NCBI RefSeq assembly: GCF_001506165.1 | Contig: NZ_CP011427.1 | Span: 1,612,001 to 1,676,000 of the forward strand | From: Pantoea vagans | GTDB lineage: Bacteria > Pseudomonadota > Gammaproteobacteria > Enterobacterales > Enterobacteriaceae | Direction: 5' to 3' | DNA length: 64,000 bases | Part shown: positions 11,535 through 48,014 of the stretch, in pieces | Layout: each line of letters opens with the position of its first letter | Position numbering within the stretch: the first letter of the stretch is position 1 | Program-made: the position numbers and the translations under genes | The notes under the pieces: model-generated | The model's database searches: none | Seen by the model: the letters and a program-made list of their open reading frames with translations, nothing else | What the model was told of the DNA's origin: nothing

Positions 11535-11634
11535 GCAAGGCGACATCGCCTTCAAAAATGCCAACTTTTAGCGCACGGCTCTCAAAGAGCCATTTCCCTG
11601 GACCCGATACAGGAATCGTATTGGGTCTTTTTTT
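11535..11634 (+). ncRNA. sdsR: SdsR (RyeB) stationary-phase small RNA
   Basis: This is a close match, as I remember it, to enterobacterial SdsR/RyeB, an Hfq-binding RNA of about 100 nt made under sigma-S that represses outer-membrane protein and other mRNAs. Diagnostic pieces are the 5' GCAAGGCGA, the core ATGCCAACTTTTAGCGCACG, the GGCTCT/AGAGCC hairpin followed by ATTTCCCTGG, and the terminator stem GACCCGATAC/GTATTGGGTC with seven T. A sigma-S-like -10 (CTACCTTTA) lies just upstream at about 11522. The location beside yebY, with pphA beyond the prophage, equals the E. coli locus. The prophage joined at its terminator, leaving the RNA intact here. The antisense RyeA/SraC of E. coli would overlap; I cannot confirm it. 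Confidence 0.92.
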
Positions 11635-11636
11635 GT
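11614..11636 (+). repeat. attL core (23-bp direct repeat)
   Basis: The 23-bp sequence from AATCGTATTGGG through a run of seven T to GT is identical at 46634-46656. It consists of the loop and 3' arm of the sdsR terminator, so integration regenerates a complete sdsR on this side. Confidence 0.93.
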
Positions 11637-11703: not shown

Positions 11704-12768
11704 TTACCCTGTGACAACCTCCACCGCCATTTTGCCGCCACTCTTACCGGCCATAATCGCCAATGGATTGCAGTGAATAGCGTCTTCAAGATGATCAGGT
11801 GCGAAGTGGGCATAACGCATCGTTACGCGTATGTCAGAGTGACCAAGGATACGCTGCAGGACAAGTATGTTGCCACCGGCCATCATGAAGTGGCTGGCGA
11901 AACTGTGTCTTAGAACGTGGCTCATTTGACCCTCTGGCAGTTCGATGCCGGAGAGACGGATTACCCGATAGAACTGGCGATAACACTCTTCGAAAAACTT
12001 GCCTTCTTTATCCTTCAACTCGTCATGCAGCTCTTTGCTAATCGGGACGGTGCGGTTGCGTTTGCCTTTGGTATTGATGAACGTGATTTTAAGCGGGGAT
12101 ATTTGCGACGCTTTAAGTGCTGCAGCCTCATTCCAACGACAACCAGTTGAGAGGCATATTTTAATAATCAATGTCAGTTGTGGATTGCCATGTACTTTAC
12201 AAGCCGCAAACAGTTTTTTTATTTGCGTCTCCGTCAACCAAGCCATCTCTTTTTCTGGCTGCTCGAATAAGCGAATGTTTTTGAGTGGGTTGGGGTAGGC
12301 AATTTCGCCCAGACGTTCCAGCTCATTAAATAGAGCACGTAAGAAGGCGTGCTCGCAATTAACTGTGCCGGGTGACACCTTTAGAGATTTAGCACTGGTT
12401 TTATAACCGTTCTCGATTTTCCCTTCTAACCGACTATTACGATAGTGCGCCCAATCTTTTGCCGTGATATTGGCAGCAATAGGATTGTCCAAGCCATTAC
12501 AAATGATATGGAGCTTACCTAAGCGTCCTTTACGGTCGCTGAGTGAACGGCCATGCAAGTTGTACCAGAGATTAATCAACTCGCTTAAACGGCGGTTATC
12601 TTCCTTCTCTGCCAGCCAAGGTTTGGCTTTGCTTTCGTCTAATGTGTACTGCTCGAAGGCAATGGCTTCGGCGCGGGTTTTAAACTGCCTTCTAACACGT
12701 TTGCCATCTCTGCCATTGAGATAGCACTCGCAAAGCCATTTGCCCGTGCTGAGCTTCCTGATCGCCAT
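11704..12768 (-). CDS. int: P2-type tyrosine integrase
   Basis: This site-specific recombinase inserts and excises the phage at the sdsR 3' end. The 354-aa product has a P2 Int N-terminus (MAIRKLSTGKW, GKRVRRQFKTRAEAIAFEQYTL), a SAM-like core-binding region (about 60-165) and a C-terminal catalytic domain. Its catalytic residues are Arg211 (STGCRWNEAA), His284-x-x-Arg287 (HVLRHSF), His310 (LGHSDI) and Tyr319 (MRYAHF), all present. Its 3' end faces attL. Unlike P2, where int follows the C repressor gene, it lies next to ogr with its own upstream region holding a LexA-type box. Confidence 0.95.
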   Translation of the reverse strand: MAIRKLSTGKWLCECYLNGRDGKRVRRQFKTRAEAIAFEQYTLDESKAKPWLAEKEDNRRLSELINLWYNLHGRSLSDRKGRLGKLHIICNGLDNPIAANITAKDWAHYRNSRLEGKIENGYKTSAKSLKVSPGTVNCEHAFLRALFNELERLGEIAYPNPLKNIRLFEQPEKEMAWLTETQIKKLFAACKVHGNPQLTLIIKICLSTGCRWNEAAALKASQISPLKITFINTKGKRNRTVPISKELHDELKDKEGKFFEECYRQFYRVIRLSGIELPEGQMSHVLRHSFASHFMMAGGNILVLQRILGHSDIRVTMRYAHFAPDHLEDAIHCNPLAIMAGKSGGKMAVEVVTG

Positions 12769-25636: not shown

Positions 25637-25657
25637 GATTGAAGGGAGATGATTGTC

Positions 25658-26677
25658 ATGGATTTAATAACTTTTAGTGAAGCATTAAAGAAATCGGAAG
25701 CTCAGAGGAAAAGACATATTCTTTTGGGAAACGGTTTTAGTATAGCTTGTAAGCCAGATATATTTATCTATGGGCGTCTATTCGAAAAAGCAAGGTTTGA
25801 TAAGCTTTCCCCCTCTGCGAAAAAAGCCTTTAGTATAATGGGCACTGAAGACTTTGAGAAAATCATTAAAATATTGAGAGATTCGAGTGATGTACTTCAA
25901 GCATATGATGTTGCCGACCAGAGCATCGTTGACCAGTTATTAGAGGATTCTGAAGCTCTTAAAGAGCTACTTGTTGAAACTCTGGCTACAAGCCATCCTT
26001 CACATCCCGGAGAAGTTAGTGAACTGCAATATCAGTCTTGCAGGCGATTTCTAAATAATTTCGAGCGCATTTATACTCTTAATTATGATTTACTACTATA
26101 TTGGACTTGCATGCATTGCGAAGAAGGAAAAAGTCCAACAAGCGATGATGGGTTTAGAAAACCTGCCGATAATTATGATGCTGATTATGTAACTTGGGAA
26201 CCTAATAATGCTCACGGACAGAGTCTTTTCTTCCTGCACGGTGCTTTGCATCTTTTTGATGCTGGCTATGAGTTAAGAAAATTCACATGGGTCAATACCA
26301 AAGTGAGACTCATTGAGCAAATTCGTAAGGCAATGAGTAACGATCTTTTCCCGGTCTTTGTTTCTGAAGGAACATCTAAAGAAAAAATTGAAAGGATTAG
26401 ACATAACGACTACCTTGCCAAAGCTTATCGAAGCTTCAGTGAAATAACCGGAGCATTGTTCATTTATGGACATTCTTTAGCTGAAAATGATGAGCATTTT
26501 CTTGGTGCAATTGAAAATGGGAAGATAAGACAGCTTTATGTTGGTATATATGGAAATCCTAATTCAAACGATAATAAAAAAATAATTAGGCGCGCCAATA
26601 AGATGGCATTAACTAGGAAAAGACATACCTTGGAAGTTTACTTCTACGATGTCTCGTCAGCAAATGTTTGGGGATAA
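25658..26677 (+). CDS. SIR2-like (DUF4917-type) protein, candidate phage-defence NADase
   Basis: In the numbering of the longer open frame from 25649, the protein has SIR2-type Rossmann landmarks in order. These are a glycine-rich loop LLGNGFSIAC (25-34), a TNYD-like YTLNYDLLLYW (142-152), a candidate catalytic His in FLHGALHLF (195-203), and FIYGHSLAENDEHFL (271-285), the GxSLxxxD motif of SIR2-like defence proteins. The nearest family I recall is DUF4917. Related SIR2 proteins deplete NAD+ during phage infection; that activity here is inference. I prefer the ATG at 25658 (339 aa) because AAGGGA is 10 nt upstream; the ATG at 25649 is too close to it. AT-rich, on the strand opposite to late genes V and S. 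Confidence 0.75.
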   Translation: MDLITFSEALKKSEAQRKRHILLGNGFSIACKPDIFIYGRLFEKARFDKLSPSAKKAFSIMGTEDFEKIIKILRDSSDVLQAYDVADQSIVDQLLEDSEALKELLVETLATSHPSHPGEVSELQYQSCRRFLNNFERIYTLNYDLLLYWTCMHCEEGKSPTSDDGFRKPADNYDADYVTWEPNNAHGQSLFFLHGALHLFDAGYELRKFTWVNTKVRLIEQIRKAMSNDLFPVFVSEGTSKEKIERIRHNDYLAKAYRSFSEITGALFIYGHSLAENDEHFLGAIENGKIRQLYVGIYGNPNSNDNKKIIRRANKMALTRKRHTLEVYFYDVSSANVWG

Positions 26678-29597: not shown

Positions 29598-30266
29598 TCA
29601 GCGGCTGGCCTGCGCCTGCTTTTTCATGGCAGTAGCCAGCCGCTCTATGTCTTTTTTCACGCCGCAGCCCTCATGCAGCTGCAGCGCGCGTTTCAGGTGG
29701 TTCATCGCTTCCAGAGTCCCGCCCGCGTCGCGATAGGCATACCCAGCGATTTTGTGCAGCTTGGCGCGCACCTGATCGGGCATGTCTTCGGCGTCGGTCA
29801 GCCGGATGGTTTCAAGCAGCGGCGCAATATCGATCGCCTCTTTTGCCGTCCAGGCACGCGTCGCGGCGCTGGCTACTTCTTCGGCCAGCAGGTACGGCAG
29901 GCTGTCACGTTTAAAACCGTCGGGCGGAACCAGATCGTGCTGCAGTGCGTAGCGGGCGATTTCAAGCGCGCCATTTACGTCGCCGGTGTCCAGCCGCCAG
30001 ATCATGACGGTCATCACGATGGCATCCTGCGCGCCGCGCCCGCTGTTCATCACGCCTGCAATCCACGGCAGGTAGTCGGGCAGCAGCTGGCGTTTAAGCT
30101 CCGCTTTGCGCTCGACCGAGTGGATTTTTTTCAGGCGGCGCTTGTCCTCGTTGAGTTTCACGAGCATCTGCTCATAGCCGGTGGCGTGGCGCAGCGGATT
30201 CGCATTCCGCTGCGTTTCGGTTTCGGCCTGAATGCGCATCCGGTGACGGCGGGCGGGACTCAGCAT
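29598..30266 (-). CDS. M: Terminase small subunit gpM
   Basis: gpM is the endonuclease subunit of P2-type terminase that, with gpP, cuts cos and starts packaging. The 222-aa product shows RRHRMRIQAETETQR near the start and LLPDYLPWIAGVMNSGRGAQ, family hallmarks. P2 gpM is 247 aa. Confidence 0.94.
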   Translation of the reverse strand: MLSPARRHRMRIQAETETQRNANPLRHATGYEQMLVKLNEDKRRLKKIHSVERKAELKRQLLPDYLPWIAGVMNSGRGAQDAIVMTVMIWRLDTGDVNGALEIARYALQHDLVPPDGFKRDSLPYLLAEEVASAATRAWTAKEAIDIAPLLETIRLTDAEDMPDQVRAKLHKIAGYAYRDAGGTLEAMNHLKRALQLHEGCGVKKDIERLATAMKKQAQASR

Positions 30267-32368: not shown

Positions 32369-34132
32369 ATGAACATGACACCCGGCACTATCATCAGCGA
32401 TCCGCGCCGTCAGGCTGCGCTGCTTTACTGGCAGGGATATTCCGTGCGCCAGATTGCGGAAGCGATCGGACAAAAAACGCCGACCGTGCAGAGCTGGAAA
32501 CTGCGCGACGAGTGGGACAGCATCGCGCCCATCAGTCGCGTGGAAGCCAGCATGGAAGCGCGGTTGATTCAGCTCATCATGAAAGAGGTCAAAGGCAACG
32601 GTGATTACAAAGAGATAGACGCGCTCGGCCGCCAGATTGAGCGGCTGGCGCGCATTGAGCGCTATCGCAGCAGCGGCAACGAGGCCGACTTAAACCCCAA
32701 CGTGCGCAACCGCAACAAAGGCGAACGCCAGCCGGTGATTAAGAATTTGTTCAGCGACGAGCAGACCGAAAAGCTCACCGGCCTGTTTATGGATAACTGC
32801 TTTGAATACCAACTCAACTGGCACAAAGCCGGGCTGGCGCACCGCATCCGCAACATCCTCAAGTCGCGGCAGATTGGCGCGACGTTTTACTTCGCCCGCG
32901 AGGCGCTGATTGATGCGCTCACCACCGGCCGCAACCAGATTTTCCTGTCGGCCAGCAAGGCGCAGGCGCACGTCTTCAAAAACTACATTCTCGACTTTGC
33001 CCGACAGGCTGACGTTGACCTCAAAGGCGACCCGATTGTGTTGCCCAACGGCGCGCGCCTTATTTTTCTCGGCACCAACGTGCGCACCGCACAGAGCTAC
33101 ACCGGCAATCTGTACCTGGATGAATATTTCTGGATCCCCAAGTTTCAGGAGCTGCGTAAGGTTGCCAGCGGCATGTCGCTGCACAAGAAGTGGCGCACCA
33201 CTTACTTTTCCACGCCGTCCAGCCTGTCGCATAGCGCCTATCCGTTCTGGTCGGGCGAGCTGTTTAACAAAGGGCGGCGCAACCGCAATGAACGCATCGA
33301 GCTGGATCTCTCACATTCTCACCTGGCGAAAGGCGCACTGTGCGGCGACGGCCAGTGGCGGCAGATTGTCACCGTTGAGGACGCACTGACGGGCGGCTGC
33401 AACCTGTTCGACATCGATCAGCTGCAGCTCGAATACAGCCCGGCGGAGTATCAGAACCTGCTGATGTGTGAATTTGTGGACGACGAAGCCAGCGTGTTCC
33501 CGTTCGCCGAGCTGCAGACCTGCATGGTGGACAGCATGGAAGAGTGGGACGACTTCAATCTGTACGCGCTGCGCCCGTTCGATTACCGGCCGGTGTGGAT
33601 TGGCTATGACCCTTCACACACAGGCGACAGCGCCGGATGTGCTGTGATCGCGCCGCCGCTGGTTGCGGGCGGCAAGTTCCGCGTGCTGGAGCGCCATCAA
33701 TGGCGCGGCATGGATTTCGCCGCGCAGGCACAGTCGATCAAAGAACTTACCGAAAAGTACACCGTGGAATACATCGGAGTTGACGCCACCGGCATCGGTC
33801 AGGGTGTGTTCCAGCTCGTGCGCCAGTTCTTCCCGGCGGCGCGGGAAATCAAATATTCGCCCGAGGTGAAAACCGCAATGGTGCTGAAAGCCAAGGACAC
33901 CATCAGCAGCGGCCGCCTCGAATACGACGCAGGCCAGACTGACATCACGCAGTCATTTATGGCTATCCGCAAAACCATGACGGCCAGTGGCAACCGCTCA
34001 ACCTACGAGGCCAGCCGCAGCGAGGAAGCCAGCCACGCCGATGTCGCGTGGGCAATCATGCACGCGCTGCTTAACGAACCGCTCACCGCTGCCAGCGGCG
34101 GCGCTAACCCTTCATTTATGGAATTTTACTGA
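32369..34132 (+). CDS. P: Terminase large subunit gpP (ATPase)
   Basis: gpP powers DNA packaging. The 587-aa product (590 in P2) has an N-terminal helix-turn-helix (SDPRRQAALLYWQGYSVRQI). The ATPase segment contains KSRQIGATFYFAREALID and LYLDEYFWIPKF (Walker B-like), and the RNase-H-like nuclease domain shows WIGYDPSHTGDSAG and YIGVDATGIGQGV. I chose the ATG at 32369 (MNMTPGTI); the frame is open to 32171, antisense to O. It is divergent from O, as in P2, and shares 1 bp with Q. Confidence 0.95.
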   Translation: MNMTPGTIISDPRRQAALLYWQGYSVRQIAEAIGQKTPTVQSWKLRDEWDSIAPISRVEASMEARLIQLIMKEVKGNGDYKEIDALGRQIERLARIERYRSSGNEADLNPNVRNRNKGERQPVIKNLFSDEQTEKLTGLFMDNCFEYQLNWHKAGLAHRIRNILKSRQIGATFYFAREALIDALTTGRNQIFLSASKAQAHVFKNYILDFARQADVDLKGDPIVLPNGARLIFLGTNVRTAQSYTGNLYLDEYFWIPKFQELRKVASGMSLHKKWRTTYFSTPSSLSHSAYPFWSGELFNKGRRNRNERIELDLSHSHLAKGALCGDGQWRQIVTVEDALTGGCNLFDIDQLQLEYSPAEYQNLLMCEFVDDEASVFPFAELQTCMVDSMEEWDDFNLYALRPFDYRPVWIGYDPSHTGDSAGCAVIAPPLVAGGKFRVLERHQWRGMDFAAQAQSIKELTEKYTVEYIGVDATGIGQGVFQLVRQFFPAAREIKYSPEVKTAMVLKAKDTISSGRLEYDAGQTDITQSFMAIRKTMTASGNRSTYEASRSEEASHADVAWAIMHALLNEPLTAASGGANPSFMEFY

Positions 34133-35154
34133 TGAGCAAACGCAACCACCGCAAGGCATTCACCGCAAAAAACCAGCCCGCACAGGACGCGTCACAACCG
34201 TTCGAGGCGTTTACCTTTGGCGAGCCGACGGCGGTACTCGATAAGCGCGACATCATGGATTACGCCGAGTGCATCCATAACGGCCGCTGGTATGAGCCGC
34301 CGGTCAGCTTCCACGGCTTGGCAAAAAGCCTGCGCTCGGCGGTGCATCACAGCTCGCCGCTGTATGTGAAGCGCAACATTCTGGCCTCAACGTTTATCCC
34401 GCACCCTCTGCTGAGCCAACAGGAGTTCAGCAAGTTTGCGCTCGACTATCTGGTGTTTGGTAACGCTTTCGCGGAGCTACGTCGCAACACACTCGGCAAA
34501 CCGCTGCGTCTGGAAACGTCACCGGCCAAGTACACGCGGCGCGGTGTGGAAGAGGGCGTTTACTGGTTTGTGAATGAGTGGAAGGATGCGCATCAGTTCG
34601 AGGCGGATCAGGTATACCAACTTATCGAGCCGGATGTGAATCAGGAGCTGTACGGCCTGCCGGAATACCTCAGCGCACTTAATTCGGCCTGGCTGAATGA
34701 GGCGGCGACGCTTTTCCGCCGGAAGTATTACCAGAACGGCGCGCACGCGGGTTACATACTTTATATGACCGACGCCGCGCAGAGCAGCAGCGATATTGAG
34801 CGCATGCGACAGGCGATGCGCGATACCAAAGGGATCGGCAACTTCCGCAACCTGTTCATGTATGCGCCCAACGGCAAGCCGGACGGCATCAAGATTTTGC
34901 CTCTGAGTGAGGTGGCAACGCGGGATGATTTCTTTAACATCAAGAAGGCCAGCCGCGATGATTTGCTCAGTGCGCACCGCGTACCGCCACAGATGATGGG
35001 GATTATCCCCGACAACACTGGCGGGTTTGGAGATGCGGTTAAGGCGGCGCAGGTGTTTGTTCGCAATGAGCTGACACCATTGCAGGAGCGAATGAAGGAG
35101 CTAAACGATTGGCTGGGTCAGACAGTAATTAGATTTCAAGAATACAACCTTTGA
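34132..35154 (+). CDS. Q: Portal protein gpQ
   Basis: gpQ forms the dodecameric portal at the capsid vertex through which DNA enters. The 340-aa product (344 in P2) contains FTFGEPTAVLDKRDIMDYAE, DYLVFGNAFAELRRN and AHRVPPQMMGIIPDNTGGFG, signatures of the PBSX/P2 portal family. It follows P with a 1-bp ATGA-type overlap and ends at a hairpin shared with the retron gene. Confidence 0.95.
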   Translation: MSKRNHRKAFTAKNQPAQDASQPFEAFTFGEPTAVLDKRDIMDYAECIHNGRWYEPPVSFHGLAKSLRSAVHHSSPLYVKRNILASTFIPHPLLSQQEFSKFALDYLVFGNAFAELRRNTLGKPLRLETSPAKYTRRGVEEGVYWFVNEWKDAHQFEADQVYQLIEPDVNQELYGLPEYLSALNSAWLNEAATLFRRKYYQNGAHAGYILYMTDAAQSSSDIERMRQAMRDTKGIGNFRNLFMYAPNGKPDGIKILPLSEVATRDDFFNIKKASRDDLLSAHRVPPQMMGIIPDNTGGFGDAVKAAQVFVRNELTPLQERMKELNDWLGQTVIRFQEYNL

Positions 35155-35157
35155 TAA

Positions 35158-35176
35158 AAGCCCCTTAATGGGGCTT
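35158..35176. terminator. Hairpin terminator shared by Q and the retron gene
   Basis: AAGCCCC/GGGGCTT with a TTAAT loop lies 3 bp after the Q stop. The retron reverse transcriptase stop codon on the other strand lies inside the loop. T-rich sequence follows on the minus-strand side (TTTTATC), so it can end both convergent transcripts. Confidence 0.75.
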
Positions 35177-36895
35177 GCTTTTATAATCTTTGATTATTGC
35201 TTTAATTGAGTCAAACAGAACATTAAATCCTTTAAACTCGATGCTATTCTTTTTAACTTTAACGACATACTCAGCAAAGTGATTTTTCCCATAGTGCTTA
35301 GAAGAATCAAAGTTTCCTTTGTAGCTAAAACTTTTCTTCCCAAGTTTTTCATTGAGTGTCTTAGCATCAAAAAAATCCTCAATAGCACTATCCCCACCCA
35401 TTACCAAAGGGGTTTGCAGTATATATAAGTTTTTTATAATATGGGTAAAGGTGTCGGTATTATCGAACTTACTTTTAGTTATCTGACTTACCAATGATCT
35501 CACACTTGGCGCGCCTGAATCATTATCAATTAAAATTATAACGGGCTGAGGCAATGAGAACCTTTTGAATTCATCACAATAACTTGAATAGTTACTAATT
35601 AAATTCCCAATATCACCCGTACCCCCTGTAACTCTAAACAATTCGCCAATGGTTTTAGATGGCCTGAAGAAATCCACTTTCAATTCTTTGCTTAATATAA
35701 GTGAGCGGTGCTTGGCTGCCTGAGAATGCAAAGCACACTTTAAATAAACTATATCAGTCTTACCCTCACAAACAATTAATGGTTTTTTACCAGATACGAA
35801 ATTTTTAAAGAAAAGCATATCTCTATACATTCTGCTGTCAGCATCAAAAATGCTATCCATCAAAGCTTTTGTTGGTTTTTTTGGTATGACATACTCAGTT
35901 GCAGTAGTGATTCTATGTTCACGCCTAACGTTATGAATGTGTCCCAATATGCCAGTTACGTAATTTATGTTTTCCTTTTTTTCTGGCTTGGCATTGATTG
36001 CGTATATCTCTTTACCACTTTTCATTTTGTGCCAAATAACTCTAGCGCGATTCCTGTAATCCGAAGGAACGTTAACCTTTTTGTTTACTATGAGTCCCGT
36101 GACATCTTGTCTAGAATCACAAAATTGAAGTCTGTTTTTTTTGACATTTACTTCAAAACCACACTTATCTATAACTTTGTTTAAACTGGTCCCAATTGTC
36201 ACATTTCCGTTTTCAAAAATCGCCAGTTCTTTCGGGAACTCTTTAAGGTTAGTTGAAAACGTCAAGTCATCAGCATACCTCGTATAAAAACAACTATGTT
36301 TTTTTGCAAGTGATGCGAGTCTTATATCAAGTATTCCAGCAATTAAATTAGAAACAATTGGTGATGTTGGCGCCCCTTGTGGTAGGCCGCTTTGATAACA
36401 GCAAATATTAGCTAAGGCTTTTGCAACCTCGTCTTCCAACTCAAAGTGTTTATTATTTTTAAAAAATCCATAAACCCTTCCAAAATGAATTTGTCCAAAA
36501 AAATCTTTTAAATCTAAATTCAGAACATACCTACTATTTTTGTGAGGGATGGCATTAGTTATTATTGACTTCCCTTTAATGAAACCATGAGAAATAGAAG
36601 TAATTTCTTTGTCATGATCCCTATGTCCCTCTAAAATGCAAATTATTCTAAAACACTCCTGTAATAAAGCTGCAACCTTCTTCTGTATATCTTTTAAATC
36701 TTTAACGGGAACATTTATTCTACGCGCAGTACCATCCTTCTTTGGTATTGTGAATGTAGTATATTTCGGGAGTCGGAGTCGGTTTATGCCGTAAATGGCA
36801 TAAGTTATTGCTTGGAAAGGAACTGAAAGCACCTCCGCCAAATCTTTAGTGTTATTAGCCGATTTTAACAAAGATAGTTTGTTATTTTTAGACAT
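35165..36895 (-). CDS. Retron reverse transcriptase fused to TOPRIM domain (Ec67/Eco2 type)
   Basis: The 576-aa protein makes msDNA from the RNA encoded upstream. The RT part (about 1-330) has RRINVPVKDLKDIQKK, the retron-specific NAIPH (114-118), motif A LNLDLKDFF (Asp128), LPQGAPTSP (171-179), the catalytic YADD (207-210) and the retron VTGL motif (265-268). The C-terminal part (about 365-576) is TOPRIM-like: VCEGKTD (375-381), LIDNDSG (455-461) and IEDFF (505-509). Retron Ec67, also found in a P2/186-like prophage, has the same RT-TOPRIM fusion at 586 aa, where the fused domain is the likely toxic effector. The gene is AT-rich, unlike neighbours Q and A. Confidence 0.93.
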   Translation of the reverse strand: MSKNNKLSLLKSANNTKDLAEVLSVPFQAITYAIYGINRLRLPKYTTFTIPKKDGTARRINVPVKDLKDIQKKVAALLQECFRIICILEGHRDHDKEITSISHGFIKGKSIITNAIPHKNSRYVLNLDLKDFFGQIHFGRVYGFFKNNKHFELEDEVAKALANICCYQSGLPQGAPTSPIVSNLIAGILDIRLASLAKKHSCFYTRYADDLTFSTNLKEFPKELAIFENGNVTIGTSLNKVIDKCGFEVNVKKNRLQFCDSRQDVTGLIVNKKVNVPSDYRNRARVIWHKMKSGKEIYAINAKPEKKENINYVTGILGHIHNVRREHRITTATEYVIPKKPTKALMDSIFDADSRMYRDMLFFKNFVSGKKPLIVCEGKTDIVYLKCALHSQAAKHRSLILSKELKVDFFRPSKTIGELFRVTGGTGDIGNLISNYSSYCDEFKRFSLPQPVIILIDNDSGAPSVRSLVSQITKSKFDNTDTFTHIIKNLYILQTPLVMGGDSAIEDFFDAKTLNEKLGKKSFSYKGNFDSSKHYGKNHFAEYVVKVKKNSIEFKGFNVLFDSIKAIIKDYKSKPH

Positions 36896-36922
36896 ATTAT
36901 CATCTTCAGAATATGAGGGGGT

Positions 36923-37051
36923 GAGGAACTATAGGCACTCATTAAGCACAACGGCCGCCCATTATCGGCAACCTGAACACATTGATAGCATTCCGCCGGA
37001 CATTTTTTTCACATATCACGCTTCGTGATAAAAGATCTGCCTATAGCCCTC
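36923..37051 (-). ncRNA. Retron msr-msd RNA gene
   Basis: On the minus strand the RNA starts near 37051 and ends near 36923, 28 nt before the RT start. The closing stem a1/a2 is CTATAGGCA (37046-37038) pairing with TGCCTATAG (36937-36929), extended by GAGG/CCTC after a small bulge. Just after a1 comes AGGCAGATC, where the G of CAG is the expected 2'-5' branch guanosine. The msr hairpin TATCACG-AAG-CGTGATA (37030-37014) follows. The order a1, branch G, hairpin, msd, a2, including GTGC...GAGTGCCT near a2, mirrors Ec67 as I remember it. The fold of the msd part (about 36945-37000, with CGGCGG/TTGCCG pairing) is uncertain. Confidence 0.85.
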
Positions 37052-37057
37052 AATATA

Positions 37058-37086
37058 TTAATATTCTAACTTTAATGTTTGTTCAA
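37058..37086 (-). promoter_or_regulatory. Sigma-70-type promoter of the retron
   Basis: On the minus strand, TTGAAC (37086-37081) and TATTAA (37063-37058) are separated by exactly 17 bp. Transcription would start about 7 nt later, at the GAGG that begins the predicted msr-msd RNA. Confidence 0.65.
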
Positions 37087-37265
37087 CTACTTTTAAGTTC
37101 AAAGCGGAAAATAATTGGATATCAGATTTCCTGATGCATTTTTGTTCAGGGTATTTTCATTGCCTGCATCTTGGTTGTAGACACCGAATAGGGACAGTTT
37201 TCGGTTGAAAGCATGTGGAAATCGTCACAACCAGGTTTGAAACATGTTTTCACCCCTCGCGCGCA

Positions 37266-37284
37266 ATGCTATCCCCGCCACGCC
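37266..37284 (-). other. cos site (P2/186 type cohesive end)
   Basis: On the minus strand GGCGTGGCGGGGATAGCAT differs at one base from the 19-nt cohesive end of phage 186 and at few from that of P2, as I recall them. It lies between the Q side and the A side, as in the P2 map. Terminase (gpP/gpM) would cut here with 19-nt overhangs. Confidence 0.85.
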
Positions 37285-37292
37285 TGCCCGCT

Positions 37293-37395
37293 TCATGCAT
37301 CGCTTTTCATGCAGATGCATGCACCACGAGAAGCCGCACCAGCAGTGGGCGCTATAGCGATAGGCGATCCTATTTGGATCATGCGAAATCATGCA
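37293..37395. repeat. Reiterated TCATGC(A/G) motif beside cos
   Basis: TCATGCA or TCATGCG occurs at 37293, 37307, 37379 and 37389, with a GCATGCA at 37317. This clustering next to cos could be the terminase recognition (cosB-like) region or simply biased sequence. Confidence 0.35.
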
Positions 37396-37419
37396 CAAGA
37401 ATGCGGTTTGCTGCACCAC

Positions 37420-37443
37420 AAAAAAAACCACCAAAATGGTGGC
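37420..37443 (-). terminator. Terminator of the early A operon
   Basis: On the minus strand GCCACC/GGTGG, with an ATTTT loop, is followed by eight T. It lies about 30 bp after the 58-codon ORF stop and before cos. Confidence 0.85.
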
Positions 37444-37471
37444 TTAGGGCAGGGGAGTTACCGAGATGAAA

Positions 37472-37648
37472 TCATTCAGCTTGGCGGAAAATGGCATCCT
37501 GATAAATCGCCGTATCAATCATTCCCGCCATCTCACTGATCATCGACAGAGCCATTTTTAACTCATCTTCTTTGCAATGCGCGACAAGTGATACGTCAGC
37601 AATGAACTGAATTCTTGCCACGGTCTCGCTAAGATTATCTATATCCAT
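37472..37648 (-). CDS. Small acidic phage protein under LexA-type control
   Basis: The 58-aa protein begins MDIDNLSETVARIQFIADVS and continues as an amphipathic, helical, Glu/Asp/Ala/Met-rich chain ending in FRQAE. GAGGAG lies about 11 nt upstream of the ATG. An SOS box lies 30 bp upstream, after the A stop. In phage 186 the LexA-controlled gene beyond A is tum, the anti-repressor; this protein is much shorter and I do not see Tum or DinI similarity. Its function is unknown; a role in induction is possible from context alone. Confidence 0.7.
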   Translation of the reverse strand: MDIDNLSETVARIQFIADVSLVAHCKEDELKMALSMISEMAGMIDTAIYQDAIFRQAE

Positions 37649-37754: not shown

Positions 37755-40055
37755 TTAATGAGCAGCCCTACTAGTTTTATGTCGTTTTGCTAGCGAAGCA
37801 AATCTTTCTAGAACTGTTGAGGGCTTCCTTCTGTCCCTGAACAGATGTCCCCTGCTACCACTCCAGAATGACTGCTCACCAACTTTGAGTTTACGGCCAC
37901 TCATTATCCAAGTGATCTCACCTTCGGATAGGTGCAAACGCGAGACATCGTGGAATATCTCTTTAAGTTGCTCGCGTTTCTCCAATTGCTGCGCGGTTGG
38001 GGTTGGTGGTGACTGATTTCGCTTCTTAACCGGTGTGCTTTCGTGCAGTCGCCGCAAAATACGCCGCCTTTCTGCTCGTGTTGGCGGACTTGAGAAATCG
38101 AGAGGGGTATCAACTGGCGGCGACGCCGTACAGTTATTGACAGAACTCCAAGAGGGCGCGGACGCGCCCTTAACGTCAACGGCCAAATCAACGGCACGCT
38201 TCGTCACAATTTTCCACTGAGTCAGTCGGGTTAGGATTGGCGTATCTGCGCCCGCTTCGGTTGCATACACGCCTTTGATACGCACGGTTTCTTCGCCGTA
38301 AGCGTTGAGATCTTCGCTCGGTTGATACCATGTGCGCACGGCCAGCTCATCCCGACGCACAAATGCGCCGCCCTGTGCGTTAACATAGCCAGCCCAATCG
38401 CCTGCATCAGCAGCGTCATGCACGGCAGCAAACTCGATACTGAGTCCATGTGCGGTTTCACTGTCGGCCATGCGGCGCAGTTCGCGATACACCGTGACCG
38501 GCGCTCCACCAACAAACTGGAACTGGCGAATGTGCCAACGCGCAGCCCATGCCGAAACGGCGGGCGCGGTGTCTTTAAGTTCTTTACCACTTTCGTCGTC
38601 CAGCTCGCCGTCGAGCGCATAGCCATCAATATTTTTTGAAATGTATTTAGCCACATAACCGGTGGCGCTGCCTTTGTCGGGATCAATGGCTTCGGCATGA
38701 AAGCGCGCTCTGCGAGCTTTTTCGCTGGTTAGTTCTACACCATCTTCACGCCATGCATAGTCGCTGATCACCTCACGCACACGATCGATATTTTCAGGCA
38801 GCATAAACATCAGCATGTGCCAATGTGGTGTAGCATCGTGATGGGGTTCGGCAACACGAATACCAAAGATGCGGATTTCTTCGCGATGCAGCTTGGCGCG
38901 AATTTTCTGCCAGACGTTGCAAAGGTAACGCTGCGTGTCTGCCGGGCTAGCGCCATTCCACTTACGGTTACGATGACCGGTCTTGATAGTAGCGTGGTAG
39001 CGAGAAGGCGCGGTAATCGTATAAAACTCACCGACAAATCCCATGTCGTTGCAGATGTTTTCAAATCCGCGAATGCGGTTCATCAACTCGCAGCGCTTAA
39101 TGGCGGGATTTGACACACTGGAATCAAACTTGTCGATTAGGCTAATTCTCTCGCCGGTTTCTTCATTCTCCAACTCAAGCCCTTTAAGAAACTCTCGCGT
39201 GCGGCGCTTTTGCTCGCGCCACTCCGACACTGTCATTCTGCTGGCATAGGGCGTGTGTTTTTTGCTGACGTTGGCGAGGGCGATTTGCAGATGTTCACGC
39301 CATGATGCCGCGATACGACGCAGGCGACCCTTCCACCATTTCTCGGTCTGCATGCGCAAAATCGCGGGTGTGACTTCTTCCGGCTCAAAGAATCGAGACG
39401 TGACCTTTTCCCAAAGTGGCGGAGTCTGGTTGAATTCGCCGGTGATGGTGGCGGCGGTCATGTAGATTCGATGTGTGTATTTGTAATCTGATTCGCTGTC
39501 AGATTGAGCATGCGCTTGCACCAGTTCAGCCAGGGTAAAGTTGGCAATGTCACCAGCCAGTAAATCAACATCGGCACGAGTCATATCAGGCAAGCGGTTA
39601 AAACGACGCATCAATTCCCATAGCGCGCCACTTGCTCTGGCTGAGCCTTTTGCATTGTCTGAATTATTAGTGAGTAGGGTTTGTGTTCCGGCCTTCATCT
39701 CGCCTAGGCGATACTTGGTGTTCACACATTCAACGCGTGGCAATGTGCGCTCAACAAATGTCTTTGTTAAGTACGCATTGGCACGGGCAATGCCCTGTGA
39801 TTTTTCCAGTTCGGCGACGCGCCTCCTGACATCGAGCTGTATCAGCGTTGGCTGCTGAGCGAGTAATTGCTCAGCATGCGCCAAAGCCGCAATCAATTGA
39901 TCGCGGCTTCGCAGTTCCTGATAGGTAGGATAGGGGCTGGCAATGGCTTCCCGTGGAGTATTCCACGGGTAAGCATATGCTTGCGACTCACCATGATTGG
40001 TATTAATTTCTTCGCTAATATCAGAAAGGGAGGCACACATTGGAACCGGAATCAT
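37755..40055 (-). CDS. A: Replication initiator gpA (HUH endonuclease)
   Basis: gpA nicks the phage origin, which in P2 lies within its own gene, and starts rolling-circle replication. The 766-aa product (761 in P2) has YPWNTPREAIASP near the N-terminus, the metal-binding HUH-type motif PHHDATPHWHMLMF (about 400-413) and the tyrosine motif YVAKYISKNIDGYAL (about 465-480). Many downstream residues match P2 A. The ATG at 40055 has AAGGG about 10 nt upstream and directly abuts a TAG that ends the upstream ORF on the same strand. Confidence 0.94.
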   Translation of the reverse strand: MIPVPMCASLSDISEEINTNHGESQAYAYPWNTPREAIASPYPTYQELRSRDQLIAALAHAEQLLAQQPTLIQLDVRRRVAELEKSQGIARANAYLTKTFVERTLPRVECVNTKYRLGEMKAGTQTLLTNNSDNAKGSARASGALWELMRRFNRLPDMTRADVDLLAGDIANFTLAELVQAHAQSDSESDYKYTHRIYMTAATITGEFNQTPPLWEKVTSRFFEPEEVTPAILRMQTEKWWKGRLRRIAASWREHLQIALANVSKKHTPYASRMTVSEWREQKRRTREFLKGLELENEETGERISLIDKFDSSVSNPAIKRCELMNRIRGFENICNDMGFVGEFYTITAPSRYHATIKTGHRNRKWNGASPADTQRYLCNVWQKIRAKLHREEIRIFGIRVAEPHHDATPHWHMLMFMLPENIDRVREVISDYAWREDGVELTSEKARRARFHAEAIDPDKGSATGYVAKYISKNIDGYALDGELDDESGKELKDTAPAVSAWAARWHIRQFQFVGGAPVTVYRELRRMADSETAHGLSIEFAAVHDAADAGDWAGYVNAQGGAFVRRDELAVRTWYQPSEDLNAYGEETVRIKGVYATEAGADTPILTRLTQWKIVTKRAVDLAVDVKGASAPSWSSVNNCTASPPVDTPLDFSSPPTRAERRRILRRLHESTPVKKRNQSPPTPTAQQLEKREQLKEIFHDVSRLHLSEGEITWIMSGRKLKVGEQSFWSGSRGHLFRDRRKPSTVLERFASLAKRHKTSRAAH

Positions 40056-43612: not shown

Positions 43613-45271
43613 ATGGAACTTGTTTATGTCTTCGCTTTAGAACATAAAATACTAAATGGTTTCGGCGCAAAATTTAGCTCTAATTTCGATGTTAGTGTTA
43701 CTGATGAAGTCATATCCATCAATAGAAATACAAAATCGGTTGATTATTATGATGGCCTTAGCATTAAGGCCATTGTCGGTAAAAATGGGGCAGGAAAATC
43801 ATCTTTATTAGATTTTATTGAGGAGTCTTGTAATCAGTATACGGAATCTAGAGGTTTCATTATCTGGCATGATCCAGAAAGGGATGAAATTATTATTCAT
43901 GACATTGGTCGCACACTCTATACATTCAGCGTTGATTCTTGTCTACAATTTAAAATTGTAGAAAACAATAGTGCTTTTTTTAAAAAAAACAACCATAAGA
44001 TCTACAAAGTAAACAATTTGCCATCGAATGATTTATTTATAAAAAAAAGGAAGAAAAAAAATGTTGTTGACCTTTCACTAGGAGCCCAAGGGAAGCTAAA
44101 AGGGAAGGGCAGAGCTAACAATCTGAAGCGTTTACTCGATTTTTTTAATGACAGTGAATGGTTGGCAAACAAGCAAGCTAAATACACATATACATTTCAT
44201 TTCAATCCTCCCAGCACTTCAATTAATCGTTGGGTCGAACAAATAATTAAGAACGAAGAGGAGTACGTTGAAAGTGACCTCGTAATTAGAGTTAAGAATC
44301 AGTTTGAAGAATATACAAACCAAGATGTTTTCAATGAAGAAAAAAACACAATAGATTCTATTTCTCAAACTTTATTAAGAAGAAATATATTTACTTTTAT
44401 AAATACTTTCCCCTCTATCCATATTGGTAATAGGAAATTCACAGATGAGTTTTGTTTGCACACTCTATTTGACTCGAGATATTGCGAGAGTTTAAATTAT
44501 GAAGATTTCGTAGGTGACTTAATATCATTTAAAGAGAAATGGAACATTGATAATAAAAAGCCTGATTATTCCATTGACAATGATTATTTTAGATTTCATT
44601 GCGCAAGGTTTTTTGATTCGATATTGAGCCTCACTGAGATAGTATATTACAGCGTAATGAATGGTAACGTTAGACGTGGTAATGAATTTAATAGCAATGA
44701 TTATTTAGTAGTGGTGTCGGTTTTACATAGCTTGTCTGCTCTTCCCTCTGGGTTGGCTAATAATTTTCGTTATGGGTGGGAAGGATTCAGTACTGGAGAA
44801 TTGGCAAAATTAAATTTATTTTCATCTATTTATAATATTGTGTCTGGTGATGCTATTAGTGGGTTGGTCATTATTGATGAAGTTGATCTTTTTTTACATC
44901 CAGAATGGCAAAGGAGCTTTGTCAGTGAATTGATTTCATTTAATAAAGAATACAACCGTGCAAAACTCCAATTTTTAATCACGACTCACTCCCCACTAAT
45001 AATCGGAGATCTACTGTCAGATGATATAATTTCAATGTTTATTCCAGATAACGGTGTTCCATTAAAAATAAAGCCTTATGGTTTTGGTACGGAAATTACA
45101 GATGCCTATGTATTAGGAATGCATATACAATCAACTTTCGGAGAGCATTCAAGGCTAAAACTCCTTGAGTTAATTGATAAAAAGAAAAGAAATGAAATTT
45201 CGGAAGACGATAAAAATTTGATAAGAATGATATCCAATCAAGAATTAAAACGGAACTTATTAAATGATTAA
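43613..45271 (+). CDS. ABC-type ATPase of a defence-like ATPase-HNH pair (PtuA-like)
   Basis: The 552-aa protein has Walker A GKNGAGKS (56-63), a signature-like FSTGELAKLNLF, Walker B LVIIDEVDLFLHPEWQ (about 418-433) and an H-loop LITTHSPLIIGDLL. This is the AAA15/OLD-like arrangement of PtuA in Septu and in Ec78-type retrons. Lys/Asn-rich insertions fill the middle. It is AT-rich, follows the repressor by 49 bp (GAGG before the ATG), and overlaps the HNH gene by 8 bp. Expression from the repressor promoter in the lysogen is likely. Defence activity is inference; no RT gene adjoins it. Confidence 0.85.
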   Translation: MELVYVFALEHKILNGFGAKFSSNFDVSVTDEVISINRNTKSVDYYDGLSIKAIVGKNGAGKSSLLDFIEESCNQYTESRGFIIWHDPERDEIIIHDIGRTLYTFSVDSCLQFKIVENNSAFFKKNNHKIYKVNNLPSNDLFIKKRKKKNVVDLSLGAQGKLKGKGRANNLKRLLDFFNDSEWLANKQAKYTYTFHFNPPSTSINRWVEQIIKNEEEYVESDLVIRVKNQFEEYTNQDVFNEEKNTIDSISQTLLRRNIFTFINTFPSIHIGNRKFTDEFCLHTLFDSRYCESLNYEDFVGDLISFKEKWNIDNKKPDYSIDNDYFRFHCARFFDSILSLTEIVYYSVMNGNVRRGNEFNSNDYLVVVSVLHSLSALPSGLANNFRYGWEGFSTGELAKLNLFSSIYNIVSGDAISGLVIIDEVDLFLHPEWQRSFVSELISFNKEYNRAKLQFLITTHSPLIIGDLLSDDIISMFIPDNGVPLKIKPYGFGTEITDAYVLGMHIQSTFGEHSRLKLLELIDKKKRNEISEDDKNLIRMISNQELKRNLLND

Positions 45272-46460
45272 TTATATTCTTCACTTTCCAAAGGAATTGA
45301 CAACTAAAATTAGAAACGAATTTTGCACGACTGTTATGATAAACCTTGAACGGTTACGCGAAAATTGTCGTGTAAATGATGCTGAAAACTTCGGTTCTCT
45401 ATCAAAGTTATCATCAAGGAAAAACATTTTAAGGATCATCTTTTGCAAACCCAGTCGTTTTAAAGAATTAATAGAAGAGGTTTTCGTTTCTCTTCCTGTG
45501 ATAGCTGATAGGTATAACCCTAAGCGTATCTTTGCAAATGGTAATTTTAATTATGAACTCCTAGAGTTGCATGCTTCTTCAACGCGAGCTAAAGAAATTC
45601 ATAGTGTAGTCAAAAGTAGCTTGTCTGCAGAATTGTTAAGATTACACAGAGACTTTGATTCGTATATTTGTAGTGACCTTAATAGAAAGCTCAATGCCAC
45701 TAACAGTATCGGTAACACAAAAAAAATCTTGCTAAGAGTTAAATTACTTGCAAGTGGAGAGGGGAGACTCACTAAAGAGGAAAAAACTTTGTATCCATCT
45801 TGGGTTCAGGAGTTTTACGGAGCGTTTGATTATGAACTGCTCAGTCGAGACTATGGTTATAATTTAGTTGCCTCTAGTCAGCTAAGTGTATGTCCATATT
45901 GTAATGCGGAAGAAATACCGTTGATACTGGGTGCTAAGAAAACTCATAGACCAGCATTAGATCATTTTTTGCCTAGGTCAAAGTATCCGTTTTTAGGAAT
46001 TTCAATTTATAATTTAATACCGGCAGGTAATATTTGCAATACATCATTCAAAAGTGACATTGACTTTTTAGACGGTTACCTTAACCCGCTTGTTAGTGGT
46101 GTCGAACACAAGAGTTTATTTAATTTTGAGTTCAATGCTTTATTAAATTTAGTCGATATTAGATTAAAAAAAATCCAAGCATTTGAGAAAAATAAAAATA
46201 TTTTTGAGTTAGAGGCTCGCTATTGCTCACCTTATTATGAGGAAGTTTACTTAGACATTAGAACCAATTACAAAATCCTAAAAGATTTGAATAAAAATGA
46301 AGTTGATATTTCTAAAGACAAGTTTTTAATTAATCAATTCTTCAAGATGAATGGTTCATGTAATAAAACACAAAATTTAAAGTTCAGAAAAGAAGCGTTG
46401 CGGCATGTGATATTTAATCATAAGCTTGTAAATACGCAAGAAATTGAAGTGGTTGAATGA
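45264..46460 (+). CDS. HNH nuclease partner of the ATPase (PtuB-like)
   Basis: The 398-aa protein carries a zinc-coordinated HNH motif: CPYC (210-213), ALDHFLPRSKYP with Asp-His at 233-234, IYNLIP with Asn250 and a second metal site NICNTSF (Cys258). This is the same pattern as PtuB and Ec78-type effectors. The N-terminal 200 residues and the C-terminal 130 are helical and unfamiliar, making it longer than a typical PtuB. The 8-bp overlap with the ATPase gene shows they form one unit. It ends 170 bp before attR. Confidence 0.85.
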   Translation: MINYILHFPKELTTKIRNEFCTTVMINLERLRENCRVNDAENFGSLSKLSSRKNILRIIFCKPSRFKELIEEVFVSLPVIADRYNPKRIFANGNFNYELLELHASSTRAKEIHSVVKSSLSAELLRLHRDFDSYICSDLNRKLNATNSIGNTKKILLRVKLLASGEGRLTKEEKTLYPSWVQEFYGAFDYELLSRDYGYNLVASSQLSVCPYCNAEEIPLILGAKKTHRPALDHFLPRSKYPFLGISIYNLIPAGNICNTSFKSDIDFLDGYLNPLVSGVEHKSLFNFEFNALLNLVDIRLKKIQAFEKNKNIFELEARYCSPYYEEVYLDIRTNYKILKDLNKNEVDISKDKFLINQFFKMNGSCNKTQNLKFRKEALRHVIFNHKLVNTQEIEVVE

Positions 46461-46633: not shown

Positions 46634-46656
46634 AATCGTATTGGGTCTTTTTTTGT
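46634..46656 (+). repeat. attR core (23-bp direct repeat)
   Basis: This is an identical copy of the attL core: the 3' arm and T-run of the sdsR terminator, without the 5' arm. The bacterial sequence resumes after it. Confidence 0.93.
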
Positions 46657-47880: not shown

Positions 47881-48014
47881 TTAGTTGGTAAAGTCTTCGC
47901 CGTCCCGCACAGAGCTAACGCCTTTAATGAGCGCCGGAGATAAGCGCCGGACGGGACTTTCATCAGGGCTGCAGGACGCAGCCTGTGTTGAAACTTCACA
48001 AGCGAGTGAAACGC
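47881..48014. other. Repeat-rich, probably structured intergenic stretch
   Basis: There is no convincing ORF here. It contains a 9-bp direct repeat AGCGCCGGA (twice within about 24 bases near 47930-47955), long-range GTCCCG/CGGGAC arms around it, and a GGCTGC/GCAGCC hairpin near 47970. It lies downstream of the 35-codon gene on the minus strand. It could be a structured 3' UTR, an sRNA or a repetitive extragenic element; I cannot tell which. Confidence 0.3.

Follow-up and report, generated by a model that had tools for sequence, protein, structure and literature searches.

A probable type I-C retron between gene Q and cos of a P2-like prophage in Pantoea vagans

The stretch of Pantoea vagans DNA analysed here, 64,000 nucleotides that we call the window, contains a P2-like prophage in which a gene for a reverse transcriptase (RT) fused to a Toprim domain lies behind a structured RNA gene. 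Judging from its sequence, we identify this locus with high confidence as a type I-C (Ec67/Eco2-type) retron that is complete and that the prophage carries, between gene Q and cos, as defence cargo. Family models, the match to Eco2, the noncoding RNA (ncRNA), the RT tree and the Q-cos position all agree with an earlier note on the window that had proposed an Ec67/Eco2-type retron carried by the prophage. The class is said to have been first seen in phage phi-R67. A report of this particular element was not found in the literature searched, and we make no claim that it is unpublished.

The RT-Toprim protein retains its catalytic residues

The protein-coding part of the locus consists of the following features:
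35165-36895 (- strand): RT-Toprim fusion protein, 576 aa (NCBIfam, PADLOC and PDB matches)
36266-36277 (- strand): RT catalytic motif YADD, aa 207-210 (ORF translation and homologue alignment)
35753-35767 (- strand): Toprim motif EGKTD, aa 377-381 (E374 and D378 in Eco2); E and D identical in 120/120 aligned homologues
35519-35527 (- strand): Toprim motif DND, aa 457-459 (D460 and D462 in Eco2); both D in 119/120 aligned homologues, with one gap

The 576-aa protein scores 623.5 bits against NCBIfam NF038237 (retron_Ec67_fus; retron Ec67 family RNA-directed DNA polymerase/endonuclease; cut-off 450) and 670.8 bits against the PADLOC model RT-Toprim_I-C, with RT-TIR (type XII) and RT-protease (type XI) as the next-best PADLOC retron families. 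Its best matches in the PDB are structures of Retron Ec67 (9lm3 and 9i2f/9i2g/9s1f), aligned with residues 1-572 at an E-value of 3.9e-104. A Pfam scan of the protein recovered the RT alone (PF00078, 78 bits) and listed no Toprim model. The fusion to a TOPRIM domain, described in the earlier note, is borne out by the EGKTD and DND motifs, by the NF038237 and PADLOC family models and by full-length similarity to Ec67/Eco2. The RT motifs that it had listed (NAIPH, QGAPTSP, YADD and VTG) are likewise all found in the open reading frame (ORF) at 35165-36895 (- strand) and include the retron-type NAxxH, YADD and VTG. An AlphaFold2 model built from a 19-sequence alignment has a mean pLDDT of 86.2 and a pTM of 0.56.

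Individual residues were compared with Eco2, which is encoded by locus L133 (1325 bits, residues 1-586 of the PDB sequence), and across the 120 best matches to the window protein, homologues chosen by their similarity to it. The residues kept relative to Eco2 are F48, Y207, D209, D210, H289, E377, D381, D457, D459 and E506 (window numbering), among which all of the Toprim metal ligands E, D, DxD and E are present (E377, D381, D457, D459 and E506). A possible loss of a metal ligand, raised by A504 at the position of Eco2 S513, was considered and dropped: the column is variable, and the residue preceding it is S or T in 114 of the 120 homologues. The lysine corresponding to K546 of Eco2 (K537 in the window) is kept in 119/120. 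When 30 residues named in PMC12405507 were checked against the L133 translation, 29 agreed; the exception was the catalytic lysine K562, which could not be mapped, residue 562 of that translation being a D.

A conserved msr-msd RNA gene lies upstream of the RT

Upstream of the RT gene, with 29 nt between a2 and the start codon, lie the parts of the ncRNA:
36925-37050 (- strand): retron ncRNA (msr-msd), minimum extent (covariance model R1 and RNA fold)
37038-37050 (- strand): inverted repeat a1, pairing with 36925-36937
36925-36937 (- strand): inverted repeat a2, pairing with 37038-37050
37037 (- strand): predicted branch guanosine (rG15 in Eco2), an invariant column after a1 in 40/40 alignment rows
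37014-37030 (- strand): msr hairpin with a stem of 7 bp and a loop of 3 nt, like that of Eco2 (covariation and alignment)
36939-37001 (- strand): msd template of a predicted 63-nt msDNA, its ends set by alignment to Eco2 (L133)

The earlier note had placed an msr-msd RNA gene with a1/a2 arms, a branch G and an msr hairpin at 36923-37051 and had suggested a covariance-model search of the region. The model used here, R1, was trained on 35 ncRNAs beside other RT-Toprim genes, with the window and the four other loci of its clade (L115, L116, L118 and L119) left out. Its sole full-length match in the 64 kb falls at 36925-37050 (- strand) with 62.5 bits and an E-value of 1e-15; the one other match is partial (E 0.43) and reads the same hairpin on the opposite strand. 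Together with covariation and the alignment to Eco2, this match upholds the gene and its parts. R1 also gave a full-length match at 71 of 76 further loci, or 65 of 70 outside the window's clade, the remaining six being the window's own copy L114 and clade loci L115-L119. In four of the five misses (L037, L130, L156 and L159) the RT gene has fewer than 130 bases of upstream sequence; the fifth, L199, is a genuine miss. Of the loci in which the row-picking pattern described below had failed, three (L008, L055 and L085) were left out of this test. Folded as RNA, 36920-37055 (- strand) has a z-score of -4.29, and none of 200 shuffles was equally stable. The 15-base start of the ncRNA, GGGCTATAGGCAGAT, occurs in one of 392 genomes of the bacterial family, the window's own.

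Covariation was examined across 40 retrons. In the predicted helices 96.3% of cells are paired, compared with 28.9-41.1% when the partners are slid, and 16 of the 20 pairs show changes on both sides. The rows of this alignment were picked by pattern and, except for L007, by at least 8 paired a1/a2 bases; twelve with identical ncRNA were dropped, as was L039 for too few pairs. Because rows were selected by a1/a2 pairing, the counts for the a1/a2 helix, where 10 of 13 pairs change on both sides, lean towards pairing. The msr hairpin helix was not used in choosing rows; there, two-sided changes are seen in 6 of 7 pairs, with 98.9% of cells paired. Four of five covariation measures exceed all 500 shuffles; the fifth, further pair types, does not rise above them (36 vs 33.5, with 74/500 shuffles reaching 36).

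Rfam returned no credible match for the ncRNA at gathering or permissive thresholds, which would suit a chance hairpin that happens to adjoin a solitary RT-Toprim gene. The E-value of 1e-15 from an independent covariance model, the covariation across 40 retrons and a drop in conservation just upstream of a1 leave that explanation a negligible probability. When the window is compared with the four clade loci, identity amounts to 77.8-86.5% in the ncRNA, 60.2-71.8% in the RT gene and only 40-48% (gapped alignment) in the 100 nt that precede a1.

These identities also bear on whether the retron looks intact but is inactive, making msDNA poorly or carrying a Toprim that no longer acts, as cargo en route to loss. 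Consistent with inactivity are a weak promoter, the lack of a retron in all ten same-genus prophages examined (both described below) and an msd whose predicted DNA fold is no better than chance: z is +0.69 in the window, with 153/200 shuffles as stable, and +0.05 in Eco2 (L133), with 93/200. Among the clade loci, z is -2.66 in L115, -0.60 in both L116 and L118, and -1.07 in L119. However, the reading frame is open, the catalytic residues are present, and an ncRNA more conserved than the RT gene is unlike what would be expected of dead cargo. We therefore regard an inactive retron as very unlikely.

Promoter and terminator signals

Two further signals flank the transcribed region:
37058-37086 (- strand): putative promoter TTGAAC-17-TATTAA; 8/12 consensus bases, with similar spacing in four relatives
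35158-35176 (+ strand): terminator-like hairpin after Q, between the convergent genes (listed by the scan for the + strand only)

The earlier note had assigned the retron its own promoter with 17-bp spacing. A sequence with that spacing is indeed present, and L115, L116, L118 and L119 have a similar one, in which a TTG-starting hexamer is followed by 17 bases and then a TA-starting hexamer (TATTAA, TAAAAA, TAAAAG, TACAAA). These pairs end 14-16 bases before the GGCA of a1 (16 in the window). Several hexamer placements were tried. Outside L118 and L119, the pairs share the best score or rank second to it. However, the window's sequence matches only 8 of 12 consensus bases, and a promoter scan of 34900-37600 did not list it, finding 5 promoter-like sites against a shuffle mean of 7.9. 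Eco2 (L133) has no TTG/TA hexamer pair of such spacing. Overall, a promoter at 37058-37086 is weakly supported.

The hairpin after Q extends over the final codons and the stop of the RT gene; on the RT strand, read by eye, the same hairpin is followed by a poorer T run. The C-terminal Pro-His of the RT also occurs in L116 and L119, which have GC-rich inverted repeats of differing sequence, and L115 ends in Lys-His.

The retron belongs to a distinct sub-clade of type I-C

In a maximum-likelihood tree of 41 RT cores, a check that the earlier note had proposed, the RT falls inside the I-C set, which is split from other RTs with a support of 99. The window forms one clade with L115, L116, L118 and L119 (support 100), far from Eco2. 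Four outgroup RTs, presumed to come from group II introns, have long branches and join the retrons at a support of 27, so the root of the tree is not meaningful. Four RT-TIR (type XII) and RT-protease (type XI) retrons, which have another effector domain, were included and are placed outside the I-C set. One locus, L010, is RT-TIR XII by its best PADLOC score and also has a match to RT-Toprim I-C that spans most of it. The four clade loci come from IMG/VR. Their msd ends resemble the window's (L117 carries the ncRNA of L115), and their phage backbones differ from that of the window.

Three proteins (P0001-P0003) are 86-95% identical to the window protein. Within the bacterial family, 8 of 392 genomes encode a protein above the Ec67 family cut-off; for the order the figure is 11 of 394, and both counts include the window's genome. 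Within the genus, 4 of 61 genomes have full-length relatives: the window's own and three at 39-42% identity. Organisms named among the protein-search matches include Enterobacter, Dickeya, Klebsiella, Yersinia, Pseudomonas and Burkholderia, and the best 80 loci of a scan with one genome per species include full-length relatives in Proteobacteria, Firmicutes and a cyanobacterium. The earlier note had pointed to the element as an apparent new member of its class outside Escherichia; with relatives in many other genera, this is not remarkable.

Comparison with Eco2 suggests a shared mechanism

According to PMC12405507, the Eco2 ncRNA has its branch at rG15, an msr hairpin, a template start at rG52 and an msd of 67 nt. 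All of these fit L133, and the same alignment columns give 63 nt in the window. The two retrons have in common the RT-Toprim fusion, the a1/a2 repeats, the branch G, the msr hairpin with its 3-nt loop, a similar msd length, the active-site residues and a location in a P2-like phage where they face Q head-on, with cos on the other side. In sequence they are well separated, with 36.7% identity in RT-Toprim and 52.4% in the ncRNA. Four residues that contact RNA or DNA in Eco2 are changed in the window (T249 to Q257, R264 to K272, Q329 to V336 and K418 to T415).

The same source describes the Eco2 Toprim, the part that the earlier note had presumed to be the effector, as an RNase and Eco2 as a phage defence in E. 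coli, with escaper mutants that point to the phage nuclease DenB (PMC12405507). By analogy, the RT of the window would begin 2',5'-linked DNA on the branch G and copy the msd to give roughly 63 nt of msDNA, which would remain bound to the protein and hold the Toprim RNase inactive. An infecting phage would damage the bound msDNA, as DenB is implicated in doing for Eco2, and so free the Toprim. The freed Toprim would cut RNA and stop the infection; other lysogens, and with them the prophage, would be protected. Taken together, msDNA synthesis, inhibition, RNase activity, trigger and defence probably hold for the window as they do for Eco2.

One element of Eco2 may be missing from this scheme. 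Loop 328-342 of Eco2 joins the monomers of a trimer, and its R332 is needed for defence, according to PMC12405507. The alignment leaves D331, R332 and Y333 without a partner in the window protein, and a trimer like that of Eco2 may therefore be assembled differently here or not at all. The three residues also lack a counterpart in 118, 117 and 117 of the 120 homologues, respectively, in a loop that aligns poorly. The trimer loop with R332 is a feature of Eco2 and not a defining one of type I-C, and the alignment gives a sign that the window's sub-clade does not share it. A more far-reaching proposal, which we hold only tentatively and think rather doubtful, is that the sub-clade is a type I-C variant without this loop, with a shorter msd that keeps its own ends (template start GTCCGG, end CTTAATGA), and is assembled and triggered otherwise than Eco2, perhaps by sensing a phage enzyme other than DenB.

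The retron occupies a cargo slot of P2-like phages

The prophage and the genes around the slot are as follows:
11614-46656: P2-like prophage, with 23-bp direct repeats at 11614-11636 and 46634-46656
11704-12768: integrase, inside the prophage
34132-35154 (+ strand): phage portal gene Q (PF04860, 66.8 bits)
37755-40055 (- strand): phage replication gene A (PF05840, 407.6 bits)
37259-37291: cos-like sequence, with the same core in Erwinia phage ENT90 (L194), L116, L118, L119 and the Eco2 locus L133

We take 37259-37291 to be the cos of the prophage, which fits its place between Q and A. The retron accordingly lies between Q and cos, as the earlier note had stated, and converges on Q in the same layout as the Eco2 locus. 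PMC9122126 describes the Q-A region next to cos as a hotspot for defence genes, retrons among them, in P2-like phages of E. coli.

Among 45 loci compared, 19 contain both Q and the RT, and the RT converges on Q in 18 of these (the exception is L129); the 19 include near-copies (L001/L114, L132/L133/L164 and L033/L125/L127). Two loci have Q without the RT (L032 and L194), and 24 have the RT without Q, in sequence that often spans just 1.5 kb per side. Similarity of the RT and of the portal to those of the window disagree: L115 has an RT 77% and a portal 48% identical, whereas L151 has an RT 35% and a portal 78% identical. The first-ranked phage record for the backbone, ENT90 (HQ110084), has a portal 84.5% identical and lacks the retron. 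Its match to the window breaks off at 35099 and resumes at 37244; the stretch in between measures 247 bp in ENT90 and 2144 bp in the window.

The same slot was examined in ten prophages of the genus, namely those with full-length, unbroken portals of at least 84% identity among 37 places in 28 of the 61 genomes; broken or partial portals were left out (for example in G767, G784, G787, G795 and G808). None of the ten (nine genomes; portals 84-94% identical) has an RT match in the slot, and all ten have one or more ORFs of 150 aa or longer there. There are 21 such ORFs, on both strands and partly overlapping, of which ten from nine loci were scanned and none from L325. Pfam or PADLOC identified an AAA ATPase (L321), an nSTAND protein and an OLD-like Toprim ATPase (both L322), PDC-S42 (L323), DUF2971 (L324), Schlafen/AlbA_2 (L326), PP2C (L327), a type IIG restriction enzyme (L328) and CwfJ_C_1 (L329); the ORF of L330 matched neither database, and PADLOC itself matched 4 of the 10. 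In the other three genomes of the genus with a full-length RT-Toprim, the gene is not beside a close Q: the two are more than 1 Mb apart in G806, and neither G240 nor G755 has a match to Q at E 1e-60.

The position next to cos, seen both here and at the Eco2 locus, could also mean that the RT-Toprim serves the phage otherwise, in replication, in packaging or in excluding P2-like relatives only, and is not a general defence. We consider such a role highly improbable. Relatives occur on plasmids and many chromosomes (a tally made regardless of phage context), the RT stands without Q at the 24 loci mentioned above (many of them short in sequence), and related phages fill the slot with unrelated genes, some of them defence-like. 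Eco2 itself, moreover, defends E. coli (PMC12405507). Defence cargo thus remains the reading that we prefer.

Several other features of the prophage and its borders were observed. The 23-bp attachment repeat overlaps the 3' end of an SdsR/RyeB small RNA gene (11538-11636), and the phage therefore appears to integrate there. At the right end of the prophage, 43613-46460 (+ strand) encodes a 552-aa AAA ATPase and another protein of 398 aa that match the candidate defence pair PDC-M62A/B (110.1 and 111.4 bits), with weaker matches to PtuA/PtuB. A DUF4917 protein at 25649-26677 (+ strand) matches the candidate defence family PDC-S21 with 429.6 bits. Counting the retron, the PDC-M62A/B-like pair and the PDC-S21-like protein, the prophage carries three modules that are defence systems or candidates for them. 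ARAGORN called a tRNA-Ala (cgc) at 30168-30241 (+ strand), almost wholly within a phage ORF at 29598-30266 (- strand); the call is probably a false positive. A match to the rydB small RNA (58 bits) lies at 47902-47964 (+ strand), about 1.2 kb beyond the right end of the prophage.

Discussion

The locus is a clear addition to a known retron type in a known cargo slot. It adds to type I-C a complete and well-bounded sub-clade, with an ncRNA more conserved than its RT gene, beside a relative whose structure has been solved. This sub-clade helps to sort general features of Eco2, such as the branch G, the msr hairpin and the metal ligands, from those that are possibly specific to Eco2, such as the trimer loop and the msd sequence. 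The comparison also shows that P2-like phages whose backbones are quite different harbour type I-C retrons in the cos-Q slot, and that in these phages similarity in the RT does not go along with similarity in the portal. Of the new information, the sharp delimitation of the sub-clade is the most useful, along with the sign that it does not share the trimer loop of Eco2.
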